A DNA stretch of 35,318 nt from Phascolarctobacterium sp. Its GTDB lineage: Bacteria; Bacillota; Negativicutes; Acidaminococcales; Acidaminococcaceae. The notes beneath the pieces are model-generated. The model ran no database searches, had not been told where the DNA came from, and was given only the letters and a program-made list of their open reading frames with translations. Made by a program: the position numbers and the translations under genes. This document shows, piece by piece, positions 17,987 through 26,275 of the stretch. Every line of letters starts with the position of its first letter. The stretch's first letter is position 1. The DNA is taken from assembly GCA_017467905.1 (NCBI GenBank), contig JAFUKD010000026.1, positions 1 to 35,318 of the forward strand. The letters run 5' to 3'.

Positions 17987-18016
17987 ATCAAGGACTTCCA
18001 CCTCGTCTTCTAATTT

Positions 18017-18472
18017 TTAGTAGCCTAAATATTCGAGGAAGCCGTCCAAGCCAGCCTTCACATCATCGTAAGTCAGGTCAAAGTCGCCAGTATACCAAGG
18101 GTCAGCAATGCTTTGTCCGTTTCTGCCGGCAAAATCTAAAAGCAAACTAACCTTGTGCAAATCATCACTGCCAATAATGCGGTCAATGTTCCGCAAATTA
18201 TTTCTGTCCATTGCGACAATATAATCATAATTTTCGTAATCACGTCTTGTCATCTGGCGAGCAGTTTTGCCTGCAACGCTAATGCCAAACTGCGCCAGCT
18301 TCTTACGTGTACCATAGTGCACAGGGTTGCCAAGCTCCTCCCTGCTTGTCGCTGCAGAAGCAATATCAAACATAGAAGCAATGCCACGTTTAGCAACCAT
18401 ATCTTTCAGTAAAAACTCTGCCATCGGTGACCTACAAATGTTACCATGGCAAACGAAAAGGATTTTATGCAT
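18017..18472 (-). CDS. Low-molecular-weight protein tyrosine phosphatase
   Basis: This 151-residue cytoplasmic enzyme has the catalytic loop CHGNICRS (Cys8, Arg14, Ser15) at the N-terminus and the general acid in ADPWYTGDF (Asp124), the standard layout of the family. Roles in the family range from control of exopolysaccharide tyrosine kinases to stress response; no kinase gene is nearby. I chose the second of two consecutive ATGs (18470-18472), because it sits 6 bases from AGGAGG while the first is only 3 bases away. It is the last gene before the AT-rich block. Confidence 0.93.
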   Translation of the reverse strand: MHKILFVCHGNICRSPMAEFLLKDMVAKRGIASMFDIASAATSREELGNPVHYGTRKKLAQFGISVAGKTARQMTRRDYENYDYIVAMDRNNLRNIDRIIGSDDLHKVSLLLDFAGRNGQSIADPWYTGDFDLTYDDVKAGLDGFLEYLGY

Positions 18473-18814
18473 CATAAACCTCCTAAATTTTTCGTTCAAT
18501 ACCCCATCACTTTGCTAAATCTACTCCTCACTCTAATAGTTGTCACGAGCAATCAAAAAGTGACGTAAAATTTTTCTGTTTTTGAAAAAAATTTTAACTA
18601 ACTGCTTTTCAAAATTTTTTCTTGAGATTACGTCACTTTTCTCTTTCCGATGTCAACTATAAGGGTGAGATTTCTTTTTTCCTCTCTTCTTTTGTTGGTT
18701 TTCTTCTCTCCTTTGTTTCTTTGCCCTGTTCAAGCAAAGCTGAAAGCTTTGCATCCTTTTTCTAAAGAATGTAGTAACTTAGAGTTATGTGGAGGACAGA
18801 AATTATAATCTTAT
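18473..18814. other. 342-base gene-free stretch with a long inverted repeat at the edge of the AT-rich block
   Basis: No gene is visible. The region contains the inverted repeat at 18536-18660, a T-rich stretch, and a small perfect hairpin, GCAAAGCT/AGCTTTGC (18734-18752). That hairpin may help end transcription of the HTH gene stopping at 18815, though its T-run is weak on that strand. Confidence 0.6.
18536..18660. repeat. Long imperfect inverted repeat
   Basis: Outer arms ATAGTTG (18536-18542) and CAACTAT (18654-18660), and inner arms AAAAGTGACGTAA (18556-18568) and TTACGTCACTTTT (18628-18640), are exact inverse copies, with equal 13-base gaps between outer and inner arms. The symmetric spacing makes it a single 125-base unit. 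The centre is A/T-rich. It resembles the body of a small non-coding element or a boundary structure. Confidence 0.6.
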
Positions 18815-19588
18815 CTACGCTAAATTTTTATATTCTTTCAACCTACGATAAAATGTAGCTCTGCTAACTTCCAAACGTTGTAAAGCTTCCGCTTCAGAAA
18901 TCTTATCATTGGTAAACAAACAGAACACTTCATCTGCCTTAAGAACATCCAACTTTATACGCTGTCTACCTCTTGGAGTAAATTTTTTGTTTTCAAGTTC
19001 TTGCTTACGCGCAGCTTCATACTCACTACGATATAAAGTCATCAGCAAATGATAAAACTCTTTGCGATTACTGTCATCTATCAAATAATTTTCTGTCTGA
19101 ACATCGTGTCCAGCACAAATCACACCAAGAACTAGTTTACAATAACCCAAAGCTCTTTCCTCGTAGGAAGGTTCGTCAATCACAACACAATGCTTCTCGT
19201 CAGCTTCAGTAAAACGCCTTACATAAAATCTATCTCCACTATAACGAGTGGTTGTGCGAATAAGCCATTCTAGTTGATTATGATAATCTAATCCAACTTC
19301 CGAAAGCAGTTCCCATAAATCTTCTCTGTTCTTATTAGGAGAGCGCTCGCTAATAAAAACTGGAACCATATTTTCTCTAACATATTCTTTTTTGCGAAGC
19401 TCCATCTTCAAACCAGGTATCCCTTGATATAATGGAGCTTTCAACAAATCAATAACACTATAGTTTGGAGTGAACACATACTTGTAGCTTTCATCTTCCC
19501 AAACCGTATAACTTATCTTGGAAACCACATATTCAATTCCATATTCATCACACAAGCAAATAAGCCCCGTAGTTGTAAATTCTCTCAT
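18815..19588 (-). CDS. HipA N-terminal-like (HipS-like) domain protein with C-terminal HTH
   Basis: This is a 257-residue protein. Residues about 1-130 resemble the small N-terminal domain of HipA: VPVFISERSPNKNREDL, then LEWLIRTTTRYSGDRFYV, paralleling the pattern around the LLPEG region and the gally strand of HipA. A helical middle follows. Residues about 212-255 form an HTH of the resolvase/HTH_7 type (ISEAEALQRLEVSRATFYRR). Its ATG overlaps the stop of the kinase gene by 4 bases (ATGA), so the two are coupled. In known three-gene HipBST systems, HipS is this N-terminal domain and acts as antitoxin while HipB binds DNA. Here both jobs may be joined in one protein. The domain reading is by eye and uncertain. 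Confidence 0.6.
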   Translation of the reverse strand: MREFTTTGLICLCDEYGIEYVVSKISYTVWEDESYKYVFTPNYSVIDLLKAPLYQGIPGLKMELRKKEYVRENMVPVFISERSPNKNREDLWELLSEVGLDYHNQLEWLIRTTTRYSGDRFYVRRFTEADEKHCVVIDEPSYEERALGYCKLVLGVICAGHDVQTENYLIDDSNRKEFYHLLMTLYRSEYEAARKQELENKKFTPRGRQRIKLDVLKADEVFCLFTNDKISEAEALQRLEVSRATFYRRLKEYKNLA

Positions 19589-20439
19589 TTTGGATTCCTC
19601 AACAAATCGTAAGACGCTTTTAATATTTTCTCATAACGATGCTTCAACATATGCTTATAAAAATCCTTTTGGACATCGCTAAGTTCAACAGTTTCATCTA
19701 TCAAACTAAAAATTCTCTCCAAATCTATCTTTTCAACAATTTTTATTAACGCAACATTACATTCAGGAAAAGCCAGACTATTTATAACTTCGTAATAGGA
19801 ACTCTTCTCTCCATTCAATTTAACTTGGGAAGTTGGAAAAGTATAAATCCGTTTATCGGTTTCAGCTTCTGAATTTATAACTGATAACATTTCATATTCA
19901 TCAACCATTTTCGGATATAAGCAAGAGCCATTATCAAACACCGGAGCCAAACGATACTTATCCTTATTTTTTATAAATCCCCAGTTACCACCATGTCTAT
20001 CAAAATTACCAAGCAACGCATCCACAATAAACATTTCCCAAAACAGAGAAATTGTTTCATCAACATTTGTCAGCTTAGAATTATCTCGTAGCATTTGCAT
20101 AATATCTTCGTAAGTGTACTGATACAAGTCTGTATCTTGGTCTAAAGTACTTTCACCAACATCATTAAAAGGAACAAAGTACTCATCATAACCTATAAAA
20201 TTTTTACAGGCAACAACAGGCTCACCATCATAACTTCCTAAAAAAGTTTCTTGCACTTCAAATCCAAGCAAGCCAAAAATTCTTGAACCTAAGTATTCAG
20301 AAACGTGATTATTTCTTTTACCAAAAGCAGTTGCCTTACGAAACTTAACCATGTATTCATCTTCACCAATGACTATTCCAAGCTTTCGTTCAGAACCACT
20401 GTAATAAACATCACTGCGTTTAAACATTGAAAGGTTCAT
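19585..20439 (-). CDS. HipA/HipT/CtkA-like Ser/Thr kinase (probable toxin)
   Basis: This 284-residue protein lacks the usual N-terminal HipA subdomain, as in HipT and CtkA. Kinase elements are visible: Lys32 in EYMVKFRK (ATP anchor), SEYLGSRIFGLLG (about 47-59), the catalytic loop NFDRHGGNWGF with Asp147 and Asn152, and the metal-binding Asp169 in LAPVFDNGS. All catalytic residues are present, so it is probably active. ATG 20437-20439 follows AGGTG. It is the first gene of a two-gene unit with the HTH/HipS-like protein. Toxin-antitoxin function is inferred from family and from the coupled partner; the target is unknown. Confidence 0.8.
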   Translation of the reverse strand: MNLSMFKRSDVYYSGSERKLGIVIGEDEYMVKFRKATAFGKRNNHVSEYLGSRIFGLLGFEVQETFLGSYDGEPVVACKNFIGYDEYFVPFNDVGESTLDQDTDLYQYTYEDIMQMLRDNSKLTNVDETISLFWEMFIVDALLGNFDRHGGNWGFIKNKDKYRLAPVFDNGSCLYPKMVDEYEMLSVINSEAETDKRIYTFPTSQVKLNGEKSSYYEVINSLAFPECNVALIKIVEKIDLERIFSLIDETVELSDVQKDFYKHMLKHRYEKILKASYDLLRNPK

Positions 20440-20476
20440 AGTTCACCTGCTTTCTTCCTCTTTTAAGAAAAGTTTA

Positions 20477-20530
20477 TCATAAAAAAAGAAGAGTATCAAT
20501 AATCACTATAATTATTGATACTCTTCTTTT
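20477..20530 (-). terminator. Very strong terminator after the 80-residue repeat protein gene
   Basis: A perfect 20-bp stem (20484-20503 with 20511-20530) around a 7-base loop is followed on the minus strand by a run of seven T (with the stem end). It separates the 80-residue gene from the kinase gene. Confidence 0.9.
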
Positions 20531-20589
20531 ATTTGTCTTGGAGTTCAGCATATCATTTACTCGAACTCCTTAAAACGAGAAGTACATAT

Positions 20590-20832
20590 TTATCTATCTT
20601 TTTTAGATTGAGATAAAACACTTCCAGCTAAGCTTTTCGTCACCTTTGAATACTTATCACTATTAAGAACATTAGAAGCCTTGCTTTCCATATCCTTACC
20701 AGTAACTTTATTAGTATTACGTTGGGACAAAACACTTCCAGCTAATTCTTTTTGGATATTAGAGCTATCTTTAGCTCGTAAAATTTTTGCGGCGAAAGAA
20801 GCCATTTCCTTACCACTTTTTTTGTTGCTCAT
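20590..20832 (-). CDS. 80-residue protein made of two tandem repeats, unknown function
   Basis: The protein consists of two similar units of about 33 residues: GKEMASFAAKIL ending ELAGSVLSQ, and GKDMESKASNVL ending SLAGSVLSQ. The shared core is GK-M-(A/S)K-L, then LAGSVLSQ. It is small, polar and without a membrane segment. ATG 20830-20832 follows GAGGTG at 5 bases, and a very strong terminator lies downstream, so it looks like a genuine single-gene unit. I have no function to offer. It sits just upstream of the kinase module but is transcriptionally separate. Confidence 0.75.
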   Translation of the reverse strand: MSNKKSGKEMASFAAKILRAKDSSNIQKELAGSVLSQRNTNKVTGKDMESKASNVLNSDKYSKVTKSLAGSVLSQSKKDR

Positions 20833-20890
20833 AATAACACCTCATTATAACCAGAAAGAGAACACTGTCACCTTGTACTCTCAAAACAAA

Positions 20891-21028
20891 TTAGTCAACG
20901 TTTTCTAATTTTCTTCGTTTAGGAAAGCAAAACGCTTTCTTACCAACCTGATGGGCGTAGAGTCTACGCCCATCTTTAAGAGTTATATAAGCAGTAAAAA
21001 TCAAGTTATTATCCTTGCGTTTTTTCAT
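20891..21028 (-). CDS. 45-residue basic protein, unknown function
   Basis: This is a short open frame with strong coding signs: ATG 21026-21028, a GGGGGTG purine-rich ribosome site about 7-8 bases upstream, and a clean stop at 20891. The product begins MKKRKDNNLIFTAYITLKDG, continues RRLYAHQVGKKAFCFPKRRK and ends LENVD. It is strongly basic and has a beta-strand-like core (LIFTAYIT, RRLYAH). A palindrome at 20950-20974 lies inside the DGRRLYAH codons and is therefore not a terminator. A small RNA- or DNA-binding protein is possible but unproven. Confidence 0.65.
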   Translation of the reverse strand: MKKRKDNNLIFTAYITLKDGRRLYAHQVGKKAFCFPKRRKLENVD

Positions 21029-21060
21029 ACTACGCACCCCCTTTCCAAAAGATTTTTCAC

Positions 21061-21201
21061 AGACGAATTCGTGAATCTATGGAAAAGAGAAGAAACAAAT
21101 GCTACAATCAAAGTGCATACGAGAATAGCAGGTGACAATTCGTCTCTTCTCTTCTCACTAAGCTTATGTGAGTTTCCACCCTCACGTAAGCTTATTTTTT
21201 T
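21061..21201. ncRNA. Candidate structured RNA or antisense transcript between two small genes
   Basis: The stretch contains AGACGAATT (21061-21069) complementary to AATTCGTCT (21137-21145). It ends with a 14-bp hairpin (21159-21172 with 21181-21194, one G-U) followed on the plus strand by TTTTTTT (21195-21201). That is a textbook plus-strand terminator with no plus-strand gene in front. A plus-strand RNA ending at 21201 would be antisense to the leader of the 45-residue gene. No promoter is clear. Confidence 0.35.
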
Positions 21202-21218
21202 GAGAAACAAAGCGAGTT

Positions 21219-21602
21219 TTATGCCATAGTGACTGCTTCATCCAGATTAAACAACATTATGGATGCTTCTGGAATATACACTCCATTAACTCTATAAGAA
21301 AGCTTTTTTAAGTCCCAAGAACAAATTCTCTCAATAGTGTTGATTAAATCCCTTGAGTTCATTCTAACAGATAAAACTCCATTAGCTTTCTCTTTGTAAA
21401 ACGGAGCAGCCTTTGCATCCTCTTCATCACAACGTTGTACAGCTATTAATTTTTCAGTTTCATTAATTAATAATCTAACTCGTTCCGGATAATCCATTTT
21501 CATTATAACAGACTTATTAAAGGTCAATCCGTTATTCGTAATGGAAACATACGGAACCCCCTCATTAAAATCAAAAACCTTAAAATTAGTTAAATCAATC
21601 AC
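21219..21602 (-). CDS. Conserved-looking hypothetical protein, 127 residues
   Basis: I do not recognise a named domain. The protein alternates strands and helices, with the stretches VPYVSITNNGLTFNKS, ERVRLLINETEKLIAVQ and a C-terminal YRVNGVYIPEASIMLFNLDEA. No signal peptide or membrane segment is seen. The start is GTG 21600-21602, supported by GGGAGG about 8 bases upstream. Proteins with this general look are common in accessory regions of gut Firmicutes, but I cannot name a family. Its promoter lies at about 21648-21694 together with three direct repeats. Confidence 0.75.
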   Translation of the reverse strand: MIDLTNFKVFDFNEGVPYVSITNNGLTFNKSVIMKMDYPERVRLLINETEKLIAVQRCDEEDAKAAPFYKEKANGVLSVRMNSRDLINTIERICSWDLKKLSYRVNGVYIPEASIMLFNLDEAVTMA

Positions 21603-21647
21603 TTTGCTCGCCTCCCTTCTCTACGAACAGCATATCATGCTTTACAC

Positions 21648-21694
21648 ATTATATCAACACCATTTCCGTCAGATTTCCGTCAGATTTCCGTCAG
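21648..21694 (-). promoter_or_regulatory. Extended -10 promoter overlapped by three 11-bp direct repeats
   Basis: On the minus strand TGATATAAT (21648-21656) is an extended consensus -10 for the gene starting at 21602. Immediately upstream, ATTTCCGTCAG is repeated three times without gaps (21662-21694, plus-strand reading), covering the -35 region. The 11-base period is one helical turn, so a protein could contact the same face three times. Confidence 0.6.
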
Positions 21695-21808
21695 TATTCC
21701 TGCGCAGTTTTATTCCATCCAACAAGACGCAGTAAATTTGCACATATATATGTCAGAAACTATAAATTTGTATTGATATTTTAGCCACACGTGTATCCGT
21801 TTCCTCTT

Positions 21809-22009
21809 TTAAAATTCAACTGCTTCACTCCACTCACCAGTTTCTTCGTTATAAGCAGTTGCTTTTGTTGAAATTAATTCGCCTGGTTCTAAAACTATCT
21901 CACCACTATCATACGCTCCCTTTATGATTATCAATGCTTCTTCTACACTATCTGCCTCAACCTTAAATGTTTCGCATATAACTTCTTTAATATTAACTGT
22001 AAACTTCAC
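21809..22009 (-). CDS. DpnD/PcfM-like small protein
   Basis: This 66-residue acidic protein begins MKFTVNIKEVICETFKVEA, then DSVEEALIIIKGAYDSGEIV. It matches the DpnD/PcfM pattern: a beta strand with the conserved EA-S-EEAL-IVK helix and an acidic EIVL stretch. Members occur on mobile elements and near restriction systems; the function is not known. I chose GTG 22007-22009, because AGGTGG lies 8 bases upstream; an earlier in-frame GTG overlaps the ribosome site. It follows the restriction-modification genes but lies beyond their terminator. Confidence 0.7.
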   Translation of the reverse strand: MKFTVNIKEVICETFKVEADSVEEALIIIKGAYDSGEIVLEPGELISTKATAYNEETGEWSEAVEF

Positions 22010-22040
22010 ACAACATTCCACCTTTCTTAAAACATTTTAT

Positions 22041-22080
22041 AAAAAAACAGGTAGCAACCAATAATACGTTACTGCCTGTT
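22041..22080 (-). terminator. Terminator of the C5-methyltransferase gene
   Basis: AACAGGTAGCAAC (22046-22058) pairs with GTTACTGCCTGTT (22068-22080) with one mismatch and one G-U. On the minus strand a run of seven T follows. It lies just past the methyltransferase stop at 22087. Confidence 0.8.
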
Positions 22081-22086
22081 AATTCT

Positions 22087-23286
22087 TTATTCATCTTTAA
22101 AAATTTTATCAAGCACTTTACCCATTCTAGTAATCATTGGAACCACCAATGCATTACCCATACAGAAATACCTAAATTTTTCTGGCATCCCCGTATTTGT
22201 CCAATCATCTTCAAAACCTTGTAATCTTTCGGTTTCAACAGGAGTAAGTAATCTTAAACTTTTAGTTTGCGGATCTTCAATAACATGAGTACTTCTATTC
22301 AAACTAGATTCAGAAGTCAACATTGTTCTTGAAGGCATATCTAGTGCATCAGGAAAAGCAATTGCCCCTTCACTAAAAGTATATTGATGCCCATTTTTCG
22401 CTGTACGTAAAATTTTCTTCGCACCCTTTAGGTACTGCCATTTATCAAGATTTTCACCAAGATAATATTTTTCGTCAACGTCTTTTTCTATAATTTCTTG
22501 CAAGGGTATAGCTTGTTCTTCTACAGGGACAACTTTTGTTGTATAAACTACACCATTATGCATATAACCAGCATTAGCAAACTCGAACTTAAAGGTTTCA
22601 GAAACAGAATGTATGTCACGATAATCGATAAGACACTTATCAATATCACCAACAGGTTCTACAATAAATGTTTTTGCAAAAAAACCTTCTGTATCAAAAA
22701 TTTCTCTAGCAGAGTTTTCCCCTTGACAAATTCCCCATCTGGTATTGTTCTTATACGCAAAAATAAAAGTTCTTCTTCTTCGTTGTGCAGCACCATACTC
22801 AGCAGCGTTAACTACCCGCCATTCAACAGAATAATTCAAGTTTGCCAAGCAAGCTAACATTACACCAAAATCTCTGCCTCTTTGTTTTGCAGGAGATTTT
22901 AATAATCTATCTACATTTTCAAGCAATACAAACGGAGTGTTATGGACTTGCAATGTATCTCTAATTTGCCACCAAAGAACACCTTTCTTACCGTCAATAC
23001 CATCTGCACCCGGTAAAGGTCTAGCAACAGAATAATCTTGGCAAGGAAAACCACCAACAAGTAAATTATGTTTAGGAATATCTTTTTTATCAACAAGTGC
23101 AATATCAATTCCCGTATTTGCATCTATATCTTCCCAATGAGCAACGTAGCAGTCGTGTGCCCATTGTTTTGTTTTTCCAGGCTCCCACTGTGAAAACCAA
23201 ACTGTCTTCCAGTCAGATGATGATTTTTCTAATCCAAGTCGAAATCCTCCTACTCCTGCGAACAATTCGCAAACAGTCTGTTCCAT
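22087..23286 (-). CDS. DNA (cytosine-5)-methyltransferase, type II
   Basis: This 399-residue enzyme has the ordered C5-MTase motifs: I (ELFAGVGGFRLGLE, about 7-20), IV with the catalytic cysteine (GGFPCQDYS, Cys82), VI (LLENVDRLL, Glu123), VIII (AAQRRRRTFIFAY), a target-recognition stretch (about 210-320), then IX and X (RLLTPVETERLQGF, FCMGNALVVP). ATG 23284-23286 follows AGGGG at 7 bases; the preceding GTG is closer to the ribosome site. The neighbouring nuclease is Sau3AI-like, so the likely target is GATC (cytosine methylation); that is inference. It has its own promoter, whose -35 box contains GATC. Confidence 0.93.
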   Translation of the reverse strand: MEQTVCELFAGVGGFRLGLEKSSSDWKTVWFSQWEPGKTKQWAHDCYVAHWEDIDANTGIDIALVDKKDIPKHNLLVGGFPCQDYSVARPLPGADGIDGKKGVLWWQIRDTLQVHNTPFVLLENVDRLLKSPAKQRGRDFGVMLACLANLNYSVEWRVVNAAEYGAAQRRRRTFIFAYKNNTRWGICQGENSAREIFDTEGFFAKTFIVEPVGDIDKCLIDYRDIHSVSETFKFEFANAGYMHNGVVYTTKVVPVEEQAIPLQEIIEKDVDEKYYLGENLDKWQYLKGAKKILRTAKNGHQYTFSEGAIAFPDALDMPSRTMLTSESSLNRSTHVIEDPQTKSLRLLTPVETERLQGFEDDWTNTGMPEKFRYFCMGNALVVPMITRMGKVLDKIFKDE

Positions 23287-23316
23287 CACAGCACCCCTTT
23301 CATAAATTACTCTGTT

Positions 23317-23345
23317 ATTATAACAAAAATACCACTGTTGATCAA
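23317..23345 (-). promoter_or_regulatory. Methyltransferase promoter with a GATC inside the -35 box
   Basis: On the minus strand TTGATC (23340-23345), a 17-base spacer and TATAAT (23317-23322, preceded by TGT, an extended -10) form a strong promoter between the nuclease stop and the methyltransferase start. The -35 lies in the palindrome TTGATCAA (23338-23345). If the enzyme modifies GATC, it would methylate its own promoter. Confidence 0.65.
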
Positions 23346-23349
23346 GAGA

Positions 23350-24840
23350 TTATTTTGTCAAACTCTTTTCTAGTATAGAAAGAACATAGTCATTATTTAA
23401 CCAAAAACTTTGCTTTGTCATCCATCTACCGTCTGGTAATTTGCCAGCATCGGAATAAGTACCACTCCCACAAACTTCACCATCTTCTAAAACATAAAAA
23501 GATTTTTGAGAATGAGGTCTTATATGAATTATCTTATTATCCTTTTTCTTGGGTAAATTATTCTCAATTACAAAACCATTTTTCCGTTGTTTCTTACGTA
23601 GTACTAATCCATTAGCAATAGTTTCTTTTATTTTGTTCCAACCTTCTTGGACTTCAACATTCAAATCGTTATAAGGCATATTCCACAATTGGCAACCTTT
23701 CAAAACATAATGACTGACTTCTTGTTGGTAAACGACAAATAAAAATTTTGTTTCAGAAAGATATTCATACAAAGAAGAGTCTTCCCAATCTTCACTAACC
23801 AATTGTTGGAAAGATAAAGGAGGTAATGGACTACTTTCTACCATTTTCCCCGTAGAAGTTAGCCTAATAGCTTTAACGACAATATTTGCCTTTTGGAATT
23901 CTGCCGCTTTAGTTGACTTAATCCCCAACATTCTAAAAACTAAGTCATACCATTGTGCTTTATTGTTGTTATATTCACGTTGGAACAATTCACAAAGTTC
24001 AGCATCGCTTTTTCCAACATAAGCATTAATTTTTTCAGTGATATATTCAGCAAATGTTTTATTTTTAAGAATACTATCATCTTTTATGATAGGCTCGTAT
24101 GTAGTTATATCCTTAACAATATAATCGTTAAGAACGGTTGTCATATAAGAGTTTTTAAAACAAAAAGCTCTCTTTCTTGCTTTAACTTCTGGATTATAAA
24201 ATTGTGGAACAGTACTTTTAGCAGCTGTTGCACCTTTCGTACAAGCCCCCAAGTACATAGTATCACTTTCAGAAAGTTCATGAGCCTTTCCATCTGCAAT
24301 CTTGCTTATTATAGTTTTGTAATCTTCCTCCATAATTTTCAAGTCAGATAAAGGCGGAGTAAATAACTTTACGTAATCAATATGATACAGCAAATTATCA
24401 TCTAAACTCTTATCACGCAAGTAATATACTAATAAAAGAAGTCTACATTTTTCCCAAAGATGAGATTTATAAAACTCTGGTTCCACGGGTTCATTATAAC
24501 TAATCATAGTTAATACCAAACGTTCACCAGCGCGTTTACTACCATCTCTTCTAAGTTCATAAGGAGTTACTTTCAGTTCGACTCCTGCAAACTTAAAATC
24601 CGCAGAAGAATCACTGTTTATATCGTAACCAAAGTAAAGTTGTTCTAAAAGGTTACCTAATCCACCCTTTCGACAAGCATTACCAAATAATTCTACTGCA
24701 TTAGAAGCATCTTGCTTACCAGTTTCAAATGATTCAAAAGCCCAATCAATTACATCCTGAAAAGTGTGTCCTTTTAACCCTTGAGCGTATGCTTCAATAC
24801 TCAAAGGACATTTTTCATCATAATCTCGAAACAATTTCAT
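23350..24840 (-). CDS. Sau3AI/MutH-family type II restriction endonuclease
   Basis: This 496-residue protein is close to the length of Sau3AI. The N-terminal MutH-like domain contains GGLGNLLEQLYFGYDINSDS (about 59-78) and the catalytic triad D-x6-E-x-K in DFKFAGVELKV (Asp81, Glu88, Lys90). The C-terminal half resembles a second, allosteric MutH-like domain in this family, with PLSFQQLVSEDW and a terminal FWLNNDYVL. It should cut unmethylated GATC DNA. ATG 24838-24840 has GGAG about 11 bases upstream, somewhat long. It precedes the methyltransferase gene by 63 bases, and no separate controller-protein gene is visible. Confidence 0.88.
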   Translation of the reverse strand: MKLFRDYDEKCPLSIEAYAQGLKGHTFQDVIDWAFESFETGKQDASNAVELFGNACRKGGLGNLLEQLYFGYDINSDSSADFKFAGVELKVTPYELRRDGSKRAGERLVLTMISYNEPVEPEFYKSHLWEKCRLLLLVYYLRDKSLDDNLLYHIDYVKLFTPPLSDLKIMEEDYKTIISKIADGKAHELSESDTMYLGACTKGATAAKSTVPQFYNPEVKARKRAFCFKNSYMTTVLNDYIVKDITTYEPIIKDDSILKNKTFAEYITEKINAYVGKSDAELCELFQREYNNNKAQWYDLVFRMLGIKSTKAAEFQKANIVVKAIRLTSTGKMVESSPLPPLSFQQLVSEDWEDSSLYEYLSETKFLFVVYQQEVSHYVLKGCQLWNMPYNDLNVEVQEGWNKIKETIANGLVLRKKQRKNGFVIENNLPKKKDNKIIHIRPHSQKSFYVLEDGEVCGSGTYSDAGKLPDGRWMTKQSFWLNNDYVLSILEKSLTK

Positions 24841-24880
24841 TGAAAAACTCACTCCGCTTTCAAACAAGATTTTCCTTTTT

Positions 24881-24889
24881 ATTATACCA
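24881..24889 (-). promoter_or_regulatory. Extended -10 of the restriction nuclease promoter
   Basis: The minus strand reads TGGTATAAT, giving a start near 24874 and a leader of about 34 bases. No good -35 box is visible, so the promoter may depend on an activator or on the palindromes upstream. Confidence 0.5.
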
Positions 24890-24930
24890 TAAATTTTTAT
24901 CACTATATTTATCTAATACAGATAGTTCCT

Positions 24931-25056
24931 CCAAAGTGCAGTTTTTGCACTTTAGAACTTTCTTTTTGCACTTAGATAACCCTAAAGTGCCAATTTGGCA
25001 CTTTGGAACATATTTTTGACACTTTAGAAATCTCAAAGTACCAACTTGATACTTTG
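24931..25056. repeat. 51-bp-period array of AAAGTGC palindromes (about 2.5 units)
   Basis: Three palindromes with 8-base arms and 5-base spacers start at 24933, 24984 and 25035, exactly 51 bases apart: AAAGTGCA/TGCACTTT, AAAGTGCC/GGCACTTT, and AAAGTACC/GATACTTT (one mismatch). After each of the first two, a lone half-site follows, at 24967-24974 and 25018-25025, again 51 bases apart. The array lies about 50-180 bases upstream of the predicted nuclease transcript start. Confidence 0.75.
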
Positions 25057-25141
25057 GAATTAAGTAAAAAACTATTACAACTTTTATCCATTTCACTCTT
25101 ACAAGCGGATAGTTTAGTAATCATTCCTGTACCACTATAAA

Positions 25142-25174
25142 ACAAAAAGCACCAAACCTTTCGGTCTGGCGCTT
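25142..25174 (-). terminator. Terminator of the 128-residue hypothetical gene
   Basis: In the minus-strand RNA AAGCGCCAGACC pairs with GGTTTGGTGCTT through twelve pairs, two of them G-U, closing a GAAA tetraloop (25147-25174), followed by a TTTGTTTT tract. The G-U pairs show that it works in the minus direction. Confidence 0.8.
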
Positions 25175-25192
25175 CAATTTTACCAAATACTT

Positions 25193-25579
25193 TTATGCAC
25201 ATTCACATATCATTTTGTTTACTTCAAGTTCAAACACCTTAGTTACTTGATGCTTTAGCAGTGCAAACAAGGGTAAGTGGTAATAATATAATCTCAACTG
25301 CTCACGTAAAGATGATTTAATACGATTCATTCCTCTTCGGTAATTGAAAATATTAACGATATTTACATACAAAGAATATTTTCCGCTTAATTCATCAAAT
25401 TTAGCCTGCATCAAATCAATCTTATCAACCGGTGCGCTTAACAGCCATTCGATATCGTTCATGTCCTTTAGAAATTCTCTCATGTCATATTCTTCTTTTA
25501 AGACGCACATCCATTCAAAGGCATACTGTAAATTAATGCTGCCATCCTTATTGATTAGTCCGGAATCTGTATAAATCAT
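25193..25579 (-). CDS. Hypothetical protein, 128 residues
   Basis: No family is recognised. The protein is predicted mostly helical, with FEWMCVLKEEYDMREFLKDM in the first third, a middle helix (VDKIDLMQAKFDELSGKY), and an aromatic stretch YYYHLPLFALLKHQVTKVF near the C-terminus. There is no signal peptide. The start is ATG 25577-25579, 7 bases after GGAGG; the in-frame GTG two codons earlier overlaps the ribosome site. A strong terminator follows. It marks the right-hand end of the AT-rich block. Confidence 0.7.
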   Translation of the reverse strand: MIYTDSGLINKDGSINLQYAFEWMCVLKEEYDMREFLKDMNDIEWLLSAPVDKIDLMQAKFDELSGKYSLYVNIVNIFNYRRGMNRIKSSLREQLRLYYYHLPLFALLKHQVTKVFELEVNKMICECA

Positions 25580-25702
25580 GTTCACTCCTCCTTTGCAGAA
25601 TTATGTATGATTGCATCCCATCCCCCAAGATTATAATACCAGTGAACACTATTTTTATTGCAACGTCTCGGTTAAGATTCCTTTAAATTTTTATGACAAA
25701 GA

Positions 25703-25737
25703 AAAAAGCCAGACCTTCCGATCCGGCTTTTTGTTTT
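25703..25737 (-). terminator. Terminator of the 132-residue hypothetical gene
   Basis: AAAAAGCCAGA (25703-25713) pairs with TCCGGCTTTTT (25722-25732); the single non-Watson-Crick pair is G-U in the minus-strand RNA. A T-run follows on the minus strand. It begins a few bases after the stop at 25741. Confidence 0.75.
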
Positions 25738-25740
25738 CGT

Positions 25741-26139
25741 TTAGGATTTAGTATAAATATATTTTTCGATGAACTCAAAAATGTCATCAATAAGTTTCTT
25801 TTGACCTAAAGCGCCAAAGGCCGCAGTAACCATCAGCGGAGCAAAGATTACTGCACCAACAACGCCTGCACCAATTTTGTCAGTCCATTCGCCGCTACCT
25901 ACAGAAACAGTAATGGAATTATCGCCACCAATGATTTGAACTTGGGTTGCCTTGCTCATGCCAGCAAGCTTTTTCCAAGTGCTTTCAGGAGACTTTGCTT
26001 GCAGAAAGTAACCTTCCGGTGTCGGAGTGCCTTCTGCAACCATTTCTTTAACCTCAACCAAATATCTAACAATTGCTTCGCCAACTTGCACAGCATCTAA
26101 ATCCTGGGGAATATGATAAATTTTAGAAGTATCTGCCAT
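25741..26139 (-). CDS. Hypothetical protein with C-terminal hydrophobic segment, 132 residues
   Basis: The N-terminal part (about 1-85) looks like a compact soluble domain (GEAIVRYLVEVKEM, then EGYFLQAKSPESTWKKL and QVQIIGGDNSITVSV). A glycine/alanine-rich hydrophobic stretch follows (GAGVVGAVIFAPLMVTAAFG, about 95-114) that could insert in a membrane, and then a short helix. I do not recognise the family. The second ATG (26137-26139) is 8 bases after AAGGAG and is preferred to the ATG two codons earlier, which is only 2 bases from it. A TATAAT at 26188-26193 (minus) may be its -10. Confidence 0.75.
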   Translation of the reverse strand: MADTSKIYHIPQDLDAVQVGEAIVRYLVEVKEMVAEGTPTPEGYFLQAKSPESTWKKLAGMSKATQVQIIGGDNSITVSVGSGEWTDKIGAGVVGAVIFAPLMVTAAFGALGQKKLIDDIFEFIEKYIYTKS

Positions 26140-26275
26140 AGCCATTTCTCCTTCCATTTATAAAAATCAAAATTACCTACTATATTAATTATATCTGACA
26201 CAGTCCATGGACGCAAGGCAAGCATTGCTAAAAAACAAAATTGCTTCAAGTTTACCGAAATGTCATGTAAATTAT

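Follow-up and report, generated by a model that had tools for sequence, protein, structure and literature searches.

A palindrome array upstream of a Sau3AI-type restriction operon of Phascolarctobacterium as a candidate operator cluster for Fic/Schlafen-type winged-helix proteins

Described regulators and the restriction operon of the window

Autorepression by FIC-HTH proteins through inverted repeats, and small repressors acting with palindrome arrays before restriction-modification (RM) islands, are already known. Through its C-terminal HTH, the Fic protein CccR of Yersinia pseudotuberculosis binds as a dimer to inverted repeats, repressing the gene that encodes it (PMC9755527). Type I RM islands are repressed by RptR, a 9-kDa alpha-helical protein that recognises 6-bp TAGCTA sites and is encoded beside its operator (PMC12255303). 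In the C-protein type II RM systems an operator array precedes the restriction gene, and C is a small HTH protein encoded in the RM operon (PMC3874152). BrxR and CapW are wHTH-type WYL regulators co-localised with varied defence systems (PMC9122589, PMC9122601). They differ from the proteins described here in their WYL domain and in their operators. To our knowledge, the BrxR/CapW operator is not embedded in the coding sequence of the regulator. The O protein of phage lambda does have its binding sites (iterons) inside its own gene. It thus resembles the proteins described below in that the sites of a DNA-binding protein lie within its own gene, but the iterons belong to a replication origin and not to an operator, and the protein and the sequence are unrelated.

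Here we analysed a 35,318-nucleotide stretch of Phascolarctobacterium sp. DNA (the window), in which an array of palindromes lies upstream of a restriction nuclease gene. The control proposed below shares with CccR a Fic protein with a C-terminal HTH and inverted repeats. However, the CccR sites are located in the promoter (10-bp repeats 26 bp apart) and not in its own coding sequence, restriction genes are not involved and the operator sequence differs. With RptR it has in common a short palindromic-repeat array before RM genes, conserved across bacteria, which in the RptR case controls a defence island. In contrast to RptR, the palindromes here are of 21 bp, the proposed reader is a wHTH borne by Fic or Schlafen (SLFN) proteins, and the array neither contained TAGCTA nor had a small regulator gene recognisable beside it. 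The operon also differs from the C-protein systems in having no C protein, as profile searches found no small HTH family of this kind among the proteins of the block.

On the minus strand, a gene for a 130-aa protein (25193-25585) is followed by its intrinsic terminator (25146-25175, terminator prediction), the array, an extended -10 and the genes for the restriction endonuclease (REase), a C5-methyltransferase (MTase), a DpnD/PcfM-like protein, a 127-aa protein and a HipA-like pair. The restriction nuclease that the original prediction had placed nearby (23350-24840, start codon at 24840) was identified as a Sau3AI-family type II REase with a MutH domain (PF02976), since it scored 547 bits with NCBIfam NF040973, the Sau3AI equivalog, for which the cut-off is 300 bits. 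This match and the C5-cytosine DNA methyltransferase (22087-23289; PF00145, TIGR00675) make the operon a Sau3AI-type RM operon. The DpnD/PcfM-like small protein (PF14207) is encoded at 21809-22021, also on the minus strand. As predicted, the nuclease promoter has an extended -10, TGGTATAAT (24881-24889, minus strand, recognised from the sequence), upstream of which no -35 element was seen. The same -10 is kept in the operon of a congener (G024), homology with which starts here at TATG.TATAATAA.

The array is flanked by the upstream gene's terminator on one side and by the extended -10 on the other, about 45-175 bp ahead of this -10, and is therefore absent from the nuclease mRNA that starts from this promoter. 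RNA hairpins acting in the leader, as attenuator or terminator, are thus hard to credit. Each palindrome is foldable and one is terminator-like on the plus strand, but that prediction is on the strand opposite to the operon, and the conservation at the DNA level and the helically spaced half-sites (see below) suit protein binding better.

The array had also been proposed as the control region of the system, with the methyltransferase or the small proteins of the block as binders. The first part stood, as a dyad-symmetric array of protein-binding type is located at the control region of the operon; the binders did not. The C5-MTase starts directly at its catalytic motif, without an N-terminal HTH extension, and none of the small proteins matches a DNA-binding family. 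Control of the own operon is known for some C5-MTases and C proteins (PMC3874152). Nevertheless, G024 has the same operon without the array and the site family accompanies unrelated RM types, so that regulation by a protein of the block itself (the methyltransferase, the DpnD-like or the 127-aa protein) is very improbable.

Geometry of the array

Three palindromes, each with 8-base arms and a 5-base spacer, are located at 24933-24953, 24984-25004 and 25035-25055, with a start-to-start distance of exactly 51 bp. Two half-sites (CACTT at 24969 and 25020) are likewise separated by 51 bp, with the right arm of a palindrome 21 bp away from each, so both the period and the identical geometry claimed in the original prediction were found. 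When the region 24860-25110 was shuffled 20,000 times with its dinucleotides preserved, three such palindromes appeared in 44 shuffles and three equally spaced ones in none. The array is beyond chance.

The units are of different types. The palindrome nearest the nuclease, P3 (24933-24953, minus strand AAAGTGCAAAAACTGCACTTT), is of the TGCA type with all 8 arm pairs intact, and its translation in the frame used by the Fic linkers described below is KCKNCTL. P2 (24984-25004, minus strand; TGCC/GGCA type, 8/8 pairs) is the most widespread form of the site, its exact form being present in other genomes and phages. The distal P1 (25035-25055, minus strand) is of the TATC/TACC type with 7/8 pairs. 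On the plus strand, the half-site H2 (TGCACTT, 24967-24973) lies 21 bp from the P3 arm, and H1 (GACACTTT, TGTC type, 25018-25025) 21 bp from the P2 arm. Changes between the stems had been described as mostly paired. This held for P2 and P3, but the 'TAC/GAT' change in P1 is not fully compensated, as AAAGTACC/GATACTTT has one unpaired position.

A CRISPR array, which would have near-identical repeats and unique spacers of similar length, was rejected in agreement with the original prediction: the three palindromes are diverged and the repeat search returned a two-copy family only.

The same site in other genomes

P1 and P2 match exactly the family pattern [C/T]AAAGT[A/G][C/T]CANNTTG[A/G][C/T]ACTTT[A/G]. 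A pattern scan of GTDB genomes revealed at least 119 stretches with the site, mostly from gut Clostridia; Bacteroidota, Negativicutes, Lentisphaeria and Chloroflexota were also represented among the matches listed. The palindrome was not found in the other 62 genomes of the window's order. Most copies among the matches listed were intragenic, many in the linker that immediately precedes the C-terminal wHTH in Fic proteins (...QSAKSESPKCQIDTLECTLEELAVL...), and further ones in the linker before the wHTH of SLFN_AlbA_2/HATPase_c_4 proteins (...AKVSDIKIPKYQIDTL...). The usual coding layout is a half-site, 22 bp, the palindrome and often a second half-site. Lone half-sites in the same orientation peaked at 21-22 bp and at 12 bp from the palindrome in coding and noncoding copies alike, and the array has such an extra half-site 21 bp from both P2 and P3. 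TGCA-form half-sites, as in P3, were also present in three Fic genes (L175-L177).

The coding copies are constrained as DNA. One Fic gene translates the half-site AAAGTGCC once as QSA and once more, in another frame, as PKCQ; in SLFN genes it gives KVS. We counted codon bias at the upstream half-site, which is outside the selection of the search pattern. Its Ser codon is AGT in 54/54 genes, against 11% for Ser within the Fic domain, and its Ala codon is GCC in 36/38, as compared to 25% elsewhere. At the downstream half-site, Thr-Leu is written ACT TTR in 39 of 47 cases. Related half-sites are also kept in the linker of Fic homologs that protein similarity, rather than the pattern, had identified. 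With one half-site translated in more than one frame and its codons nearly fixed, selection at the site acts on the DNA.

The type of the operator goes together with the recognition helix of the adjoining wHTH. We compared 49 Fic and SLFN proteins. Arg occupies the second position of the recognition helix in all 31 that bear a TGCC half, and in all 18 with TATC/TGTC only this position is Ala, Ser or Pro. When 351 alignment columns of 49 Fic proteins were compared, only R330 and residue 285 were perfect predictors, residue 285 being encoded by the half-site itself. In a structure model of one Fic protein (L115), linker residues 275-295 had a pLDDT below 50, the wHTH was confidently modelled at 301-358, and R330 was the second residue of the helix 329-341. 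Operator and helix traits switched 8 times on the Fic-domain tree, concordantly in 8/8, and on a wHTH tree built with the helix left out both switched 4 times, together. The well-supported branches hold only 2 independent pairs, so the statistical case from trees alone is modest. One Fic counter-case (L173) has Arg with AAAGTGACA sites. Since the operator changes type in step with a single residue of the recognition helix, it is very probable that the palindrome is read by the wHTH.

Other proteins, too, have a palindrome beside an HTH. ParB-like proteins followed the same rule, pairing TGCC with Arg (L023), TGTC with Ser (L032) and TGTC with Ala (L029 and L033); a ParB_N-MT-A70 protein (L024) and another protein (L059) paired TGCC with Arg; and a phage HTH family had AAAAGTGCCAATTTGGCACTTTT with Arg in seven loci. 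We lean slightly towards the view that these unrelated HTH families (Fic, Schlafen/AlbA_2, ParB_N, one ParB_N-MT-A70 fusion and phage HTH) each encode their own operator beside the HTH and follow a one-residue code at half-site position 7 (Arg for C:G; Ala, Ser or Pro for T:A), and that the operator also circulates as a stand-alone copy before restriction and defence genes, tying them to incoming Fic/SLFN regulators. We found no report of Fic/SLFN linker-encoded operators, or of this operator before RM genes, in the open-access literature, the scope of which leaves out most subscription journals.

The phage-contig HTH family (L014, L015, L017, L019-L022) has no Pfam match, and its perfect in-frame palindrome, translated KSANLALL, is located just after the HTH. 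The window's own genome, G000, has an SLFN/AlbA_2-type wHTH gene beside an HsdS-like gene (L185, G000:C17 about 71,120-71,400), and CCAGAAACTAC recurs there in five near-copies within the linker ahead of the wHTH. The linkers of related SLFN genes contain other short repeats: KTAQ five times in L193, VTDR four times in L194, GENI three times in L195 and DVGK seven times in L149, with a different helix in each. This suggests that linker-encoded sites are a general habit of the SLFN/AlbA_2 wHTH family. In G000, CCAGAAACTAC was found in the SLFN linker only, and thus provides no second case of operator sharing within that genome.

Noncoding copies were found ahead of restriction and defence genes in other bacteria, where the original prediction had suggested looking for them. 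We scanned 31 distinct first genes that start no more than 600 bp from a copy classed as noncoding, and 15 of them, as a raw count, matched defence families. Downstream of the copies were a type II MTase (L048), a IIG/I MTase (L089), a type III Mod (L130), an HsdR-like gene (L081), HsdM (L151), Mrr (L051 and L091), GmrSD with a C5-MTase behind it (L119), Cas4 (L145), a SoFic-like Fic (L136) and the PADLOC candidates S01 (L070, L071), S18 (L049), S20 (L086) and S57 (L110). The L051 copy is actually inside the linker of a cut-off Fic gene. In L025 the site is located upstream of a type III Mod/Res. Blastn found no match of the array in plasmids, and a stricter two-palindrome pattern found nothing in viral contigs. 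The one informative match among phages was MT838221.1, a human gut scaffold, where a TATC palindrome, a TGTC half-site and a TGCC palindrome follow in the window's order (81% over 82 nt), with a type III Mod/Res pair directly downstream. As this order is common to the promoter region of a type III RM system, the array is a unit elsewhere as well.

In L130 (2597-3576), the Fic gene lacks a wHTH, and behind it come the palindrome, a separate wHTH frame of the Fic-linker kind and the type III Mod, possibly a split Fic-wHTH gene. In a Cytophagales contig (L100, 1176-2046), the CAAAGTATCATTTTGACACTTTG palindrome recurs ten times in nearly identical form, at intervals of about 76-80 bp or double this, along a stretch that is mostly noncoding.

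The copies might instead belong to a mobile palindromic element, like the Rickettsia palindromic elements or REP/MITE, that inserts without a regulatory role. In-frame copies do occur in unrelated genes with all reading frames open, and some genomes have several (ten in L100), but insertions are at one site beside the HTH and not random, coupling to the recognition helix would be unexpected for a transposing element, and many noncoding copies precede defence genes. Moreover, we found no copies in G000 beyond the window, and the six other genomes tested had only a single copy apiece. We consider a mobile element improbable, and REP/RPE-like palindromes, which occur as many dispersed copies per genome, were rejected on these copy numbers.

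Origin and proposed role of the array

The Sau3AI-type operon of the congener G024 has an REase 85-86% identical to that of the window and the same -10 but no array, and a putative HNH-nuclease ORF, recognised by eye, takes the place of the array. Absence from homologous restriction loci had been named as one of two grounds against the original prediction, and this half was found, since the palindrome is also missing from the rest of the order. The array is thus no inherent part of Sau3AI-type systems but an added module. A second congener, G023, whose flanks at this chromosomal site are 91-96% identical, carries here a Fic-wHTH gene that has TGTC half-sites and the helix LST and is followed by a 1511-aa protein without a Pfam match and with a weak match to PADLOC PDC-M54A. 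The DNA just upstream of this Fic-wHTH gene is homologous to the terminator region of the window (25067-25177, minus strand; 78% over 111 bp). The array therefore occupies the slot of a putative regulator gene of a sibling.

This site is a defence hotspot between the HipA-like pair and ABC transporter genes (window 18005-26274; L209 4573-10342), the cargo being the Sau3AI RM system in the window versus the Fic-wHTH gene and the 1511-aa protein in G023. Proteins of about 130 aa (window 25193-25585; L209 10521-10907 and 11355-11831; L004) form a family without a Pfam or NCBIfam match, and this family with a similar terminator precedes variable cargo in all three congeners.

Next to P3, a 25-nt tail (24908-24932, minus strand) is homologous to the start of the wHTH coding sequence of Fic genes (EELSVLD). 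Aligned with the homologous position of Fic genes, it agrees in 19/25 bases, a value reached by 0/20,000 shuffles; an ungapped free search of the tail over whole Fic genes was not significant (9/40 shuffles), so that only the fixed homologous position is significant. Past the proximal palindrome the encoded CTLEELSVLD is identical to a Fic fragment in L135. These observations bear on the possibility that the array is an orphaned relic, the remnant of the operator-bearing linker of a former Fic-wHTH gene, without present effect on the nuclease. The Fic-wHTH gene of G023 in the same slot, the CTLEELSVLD still encoded by the proximal unit, the lack of a cognate regulator in G000 (see below) and the one broken pair of P1 favour it. 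On the other hand, a Fic linker has one palindrome of one type and the array has three of different types, the order of TATC palindrome, TGTC half-site and TGCC palindrome also occurs at the type III RM promoter region of MT838221.1, and two of the palindromes are perfect despite their differing arms. Taken together, we regard a relic as a tentative possibility and rather unlikely.

We consider it fairly probable, from sequence comparison, that the array is an operator cluster for a dimeric wHTH of the Fic/Schlafen-AlbA_2 kind, ahead of the nuclease promoter. Fic and Schlafen/AlbA_2 proteins encode the same palindrome and half-site in their own disordered linker before the wHTH, and stand-alone copies would serve as portable control elements of defence operons. 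Such copies, with the same 21-22 bp spacing of half-sites, are found ahead of restriction genes of types I, II, III and IV and ahead of further defence genes, and for this reason the site probably works as a portable switch that controls defence systems. The cluster of the window would have been captured before the nuclease promoter, where a bound protein of the Fic/SLFN type would set nuclease transcription. Repression is the default guess for the direction of control, by analogy with CccR, RptR and BrxR.

G000 (99.7% complete) has six Fic genes and one SLFN/AlbA_2-wHTH gene, none of which has a matching linker or helix, and so no cognate wHTH protein was found in it. For this reason, regulation of the nuclease in the window's genome is only inferred, and the array may be orphaned there. 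The array also mixes the operator types TGCA, TGCC, TATC and TGTC, and no single helix was seen paired with all of them. The mixed types and the missing match in G000 speak against a live switch; it may be orphaned, or active only when a mobile Fic/SLFN gene is present.

If the proposed role is true, it would provide, for the switching on of defence genes, an operator that can be searched for by pattern, a predicted family of readers and a one-residue rule of specificity, and control of many restriction systems and Fic toxins would become directly testable. By encoding the operator in its own linker, the regulator would keep it through horizontal transfer.
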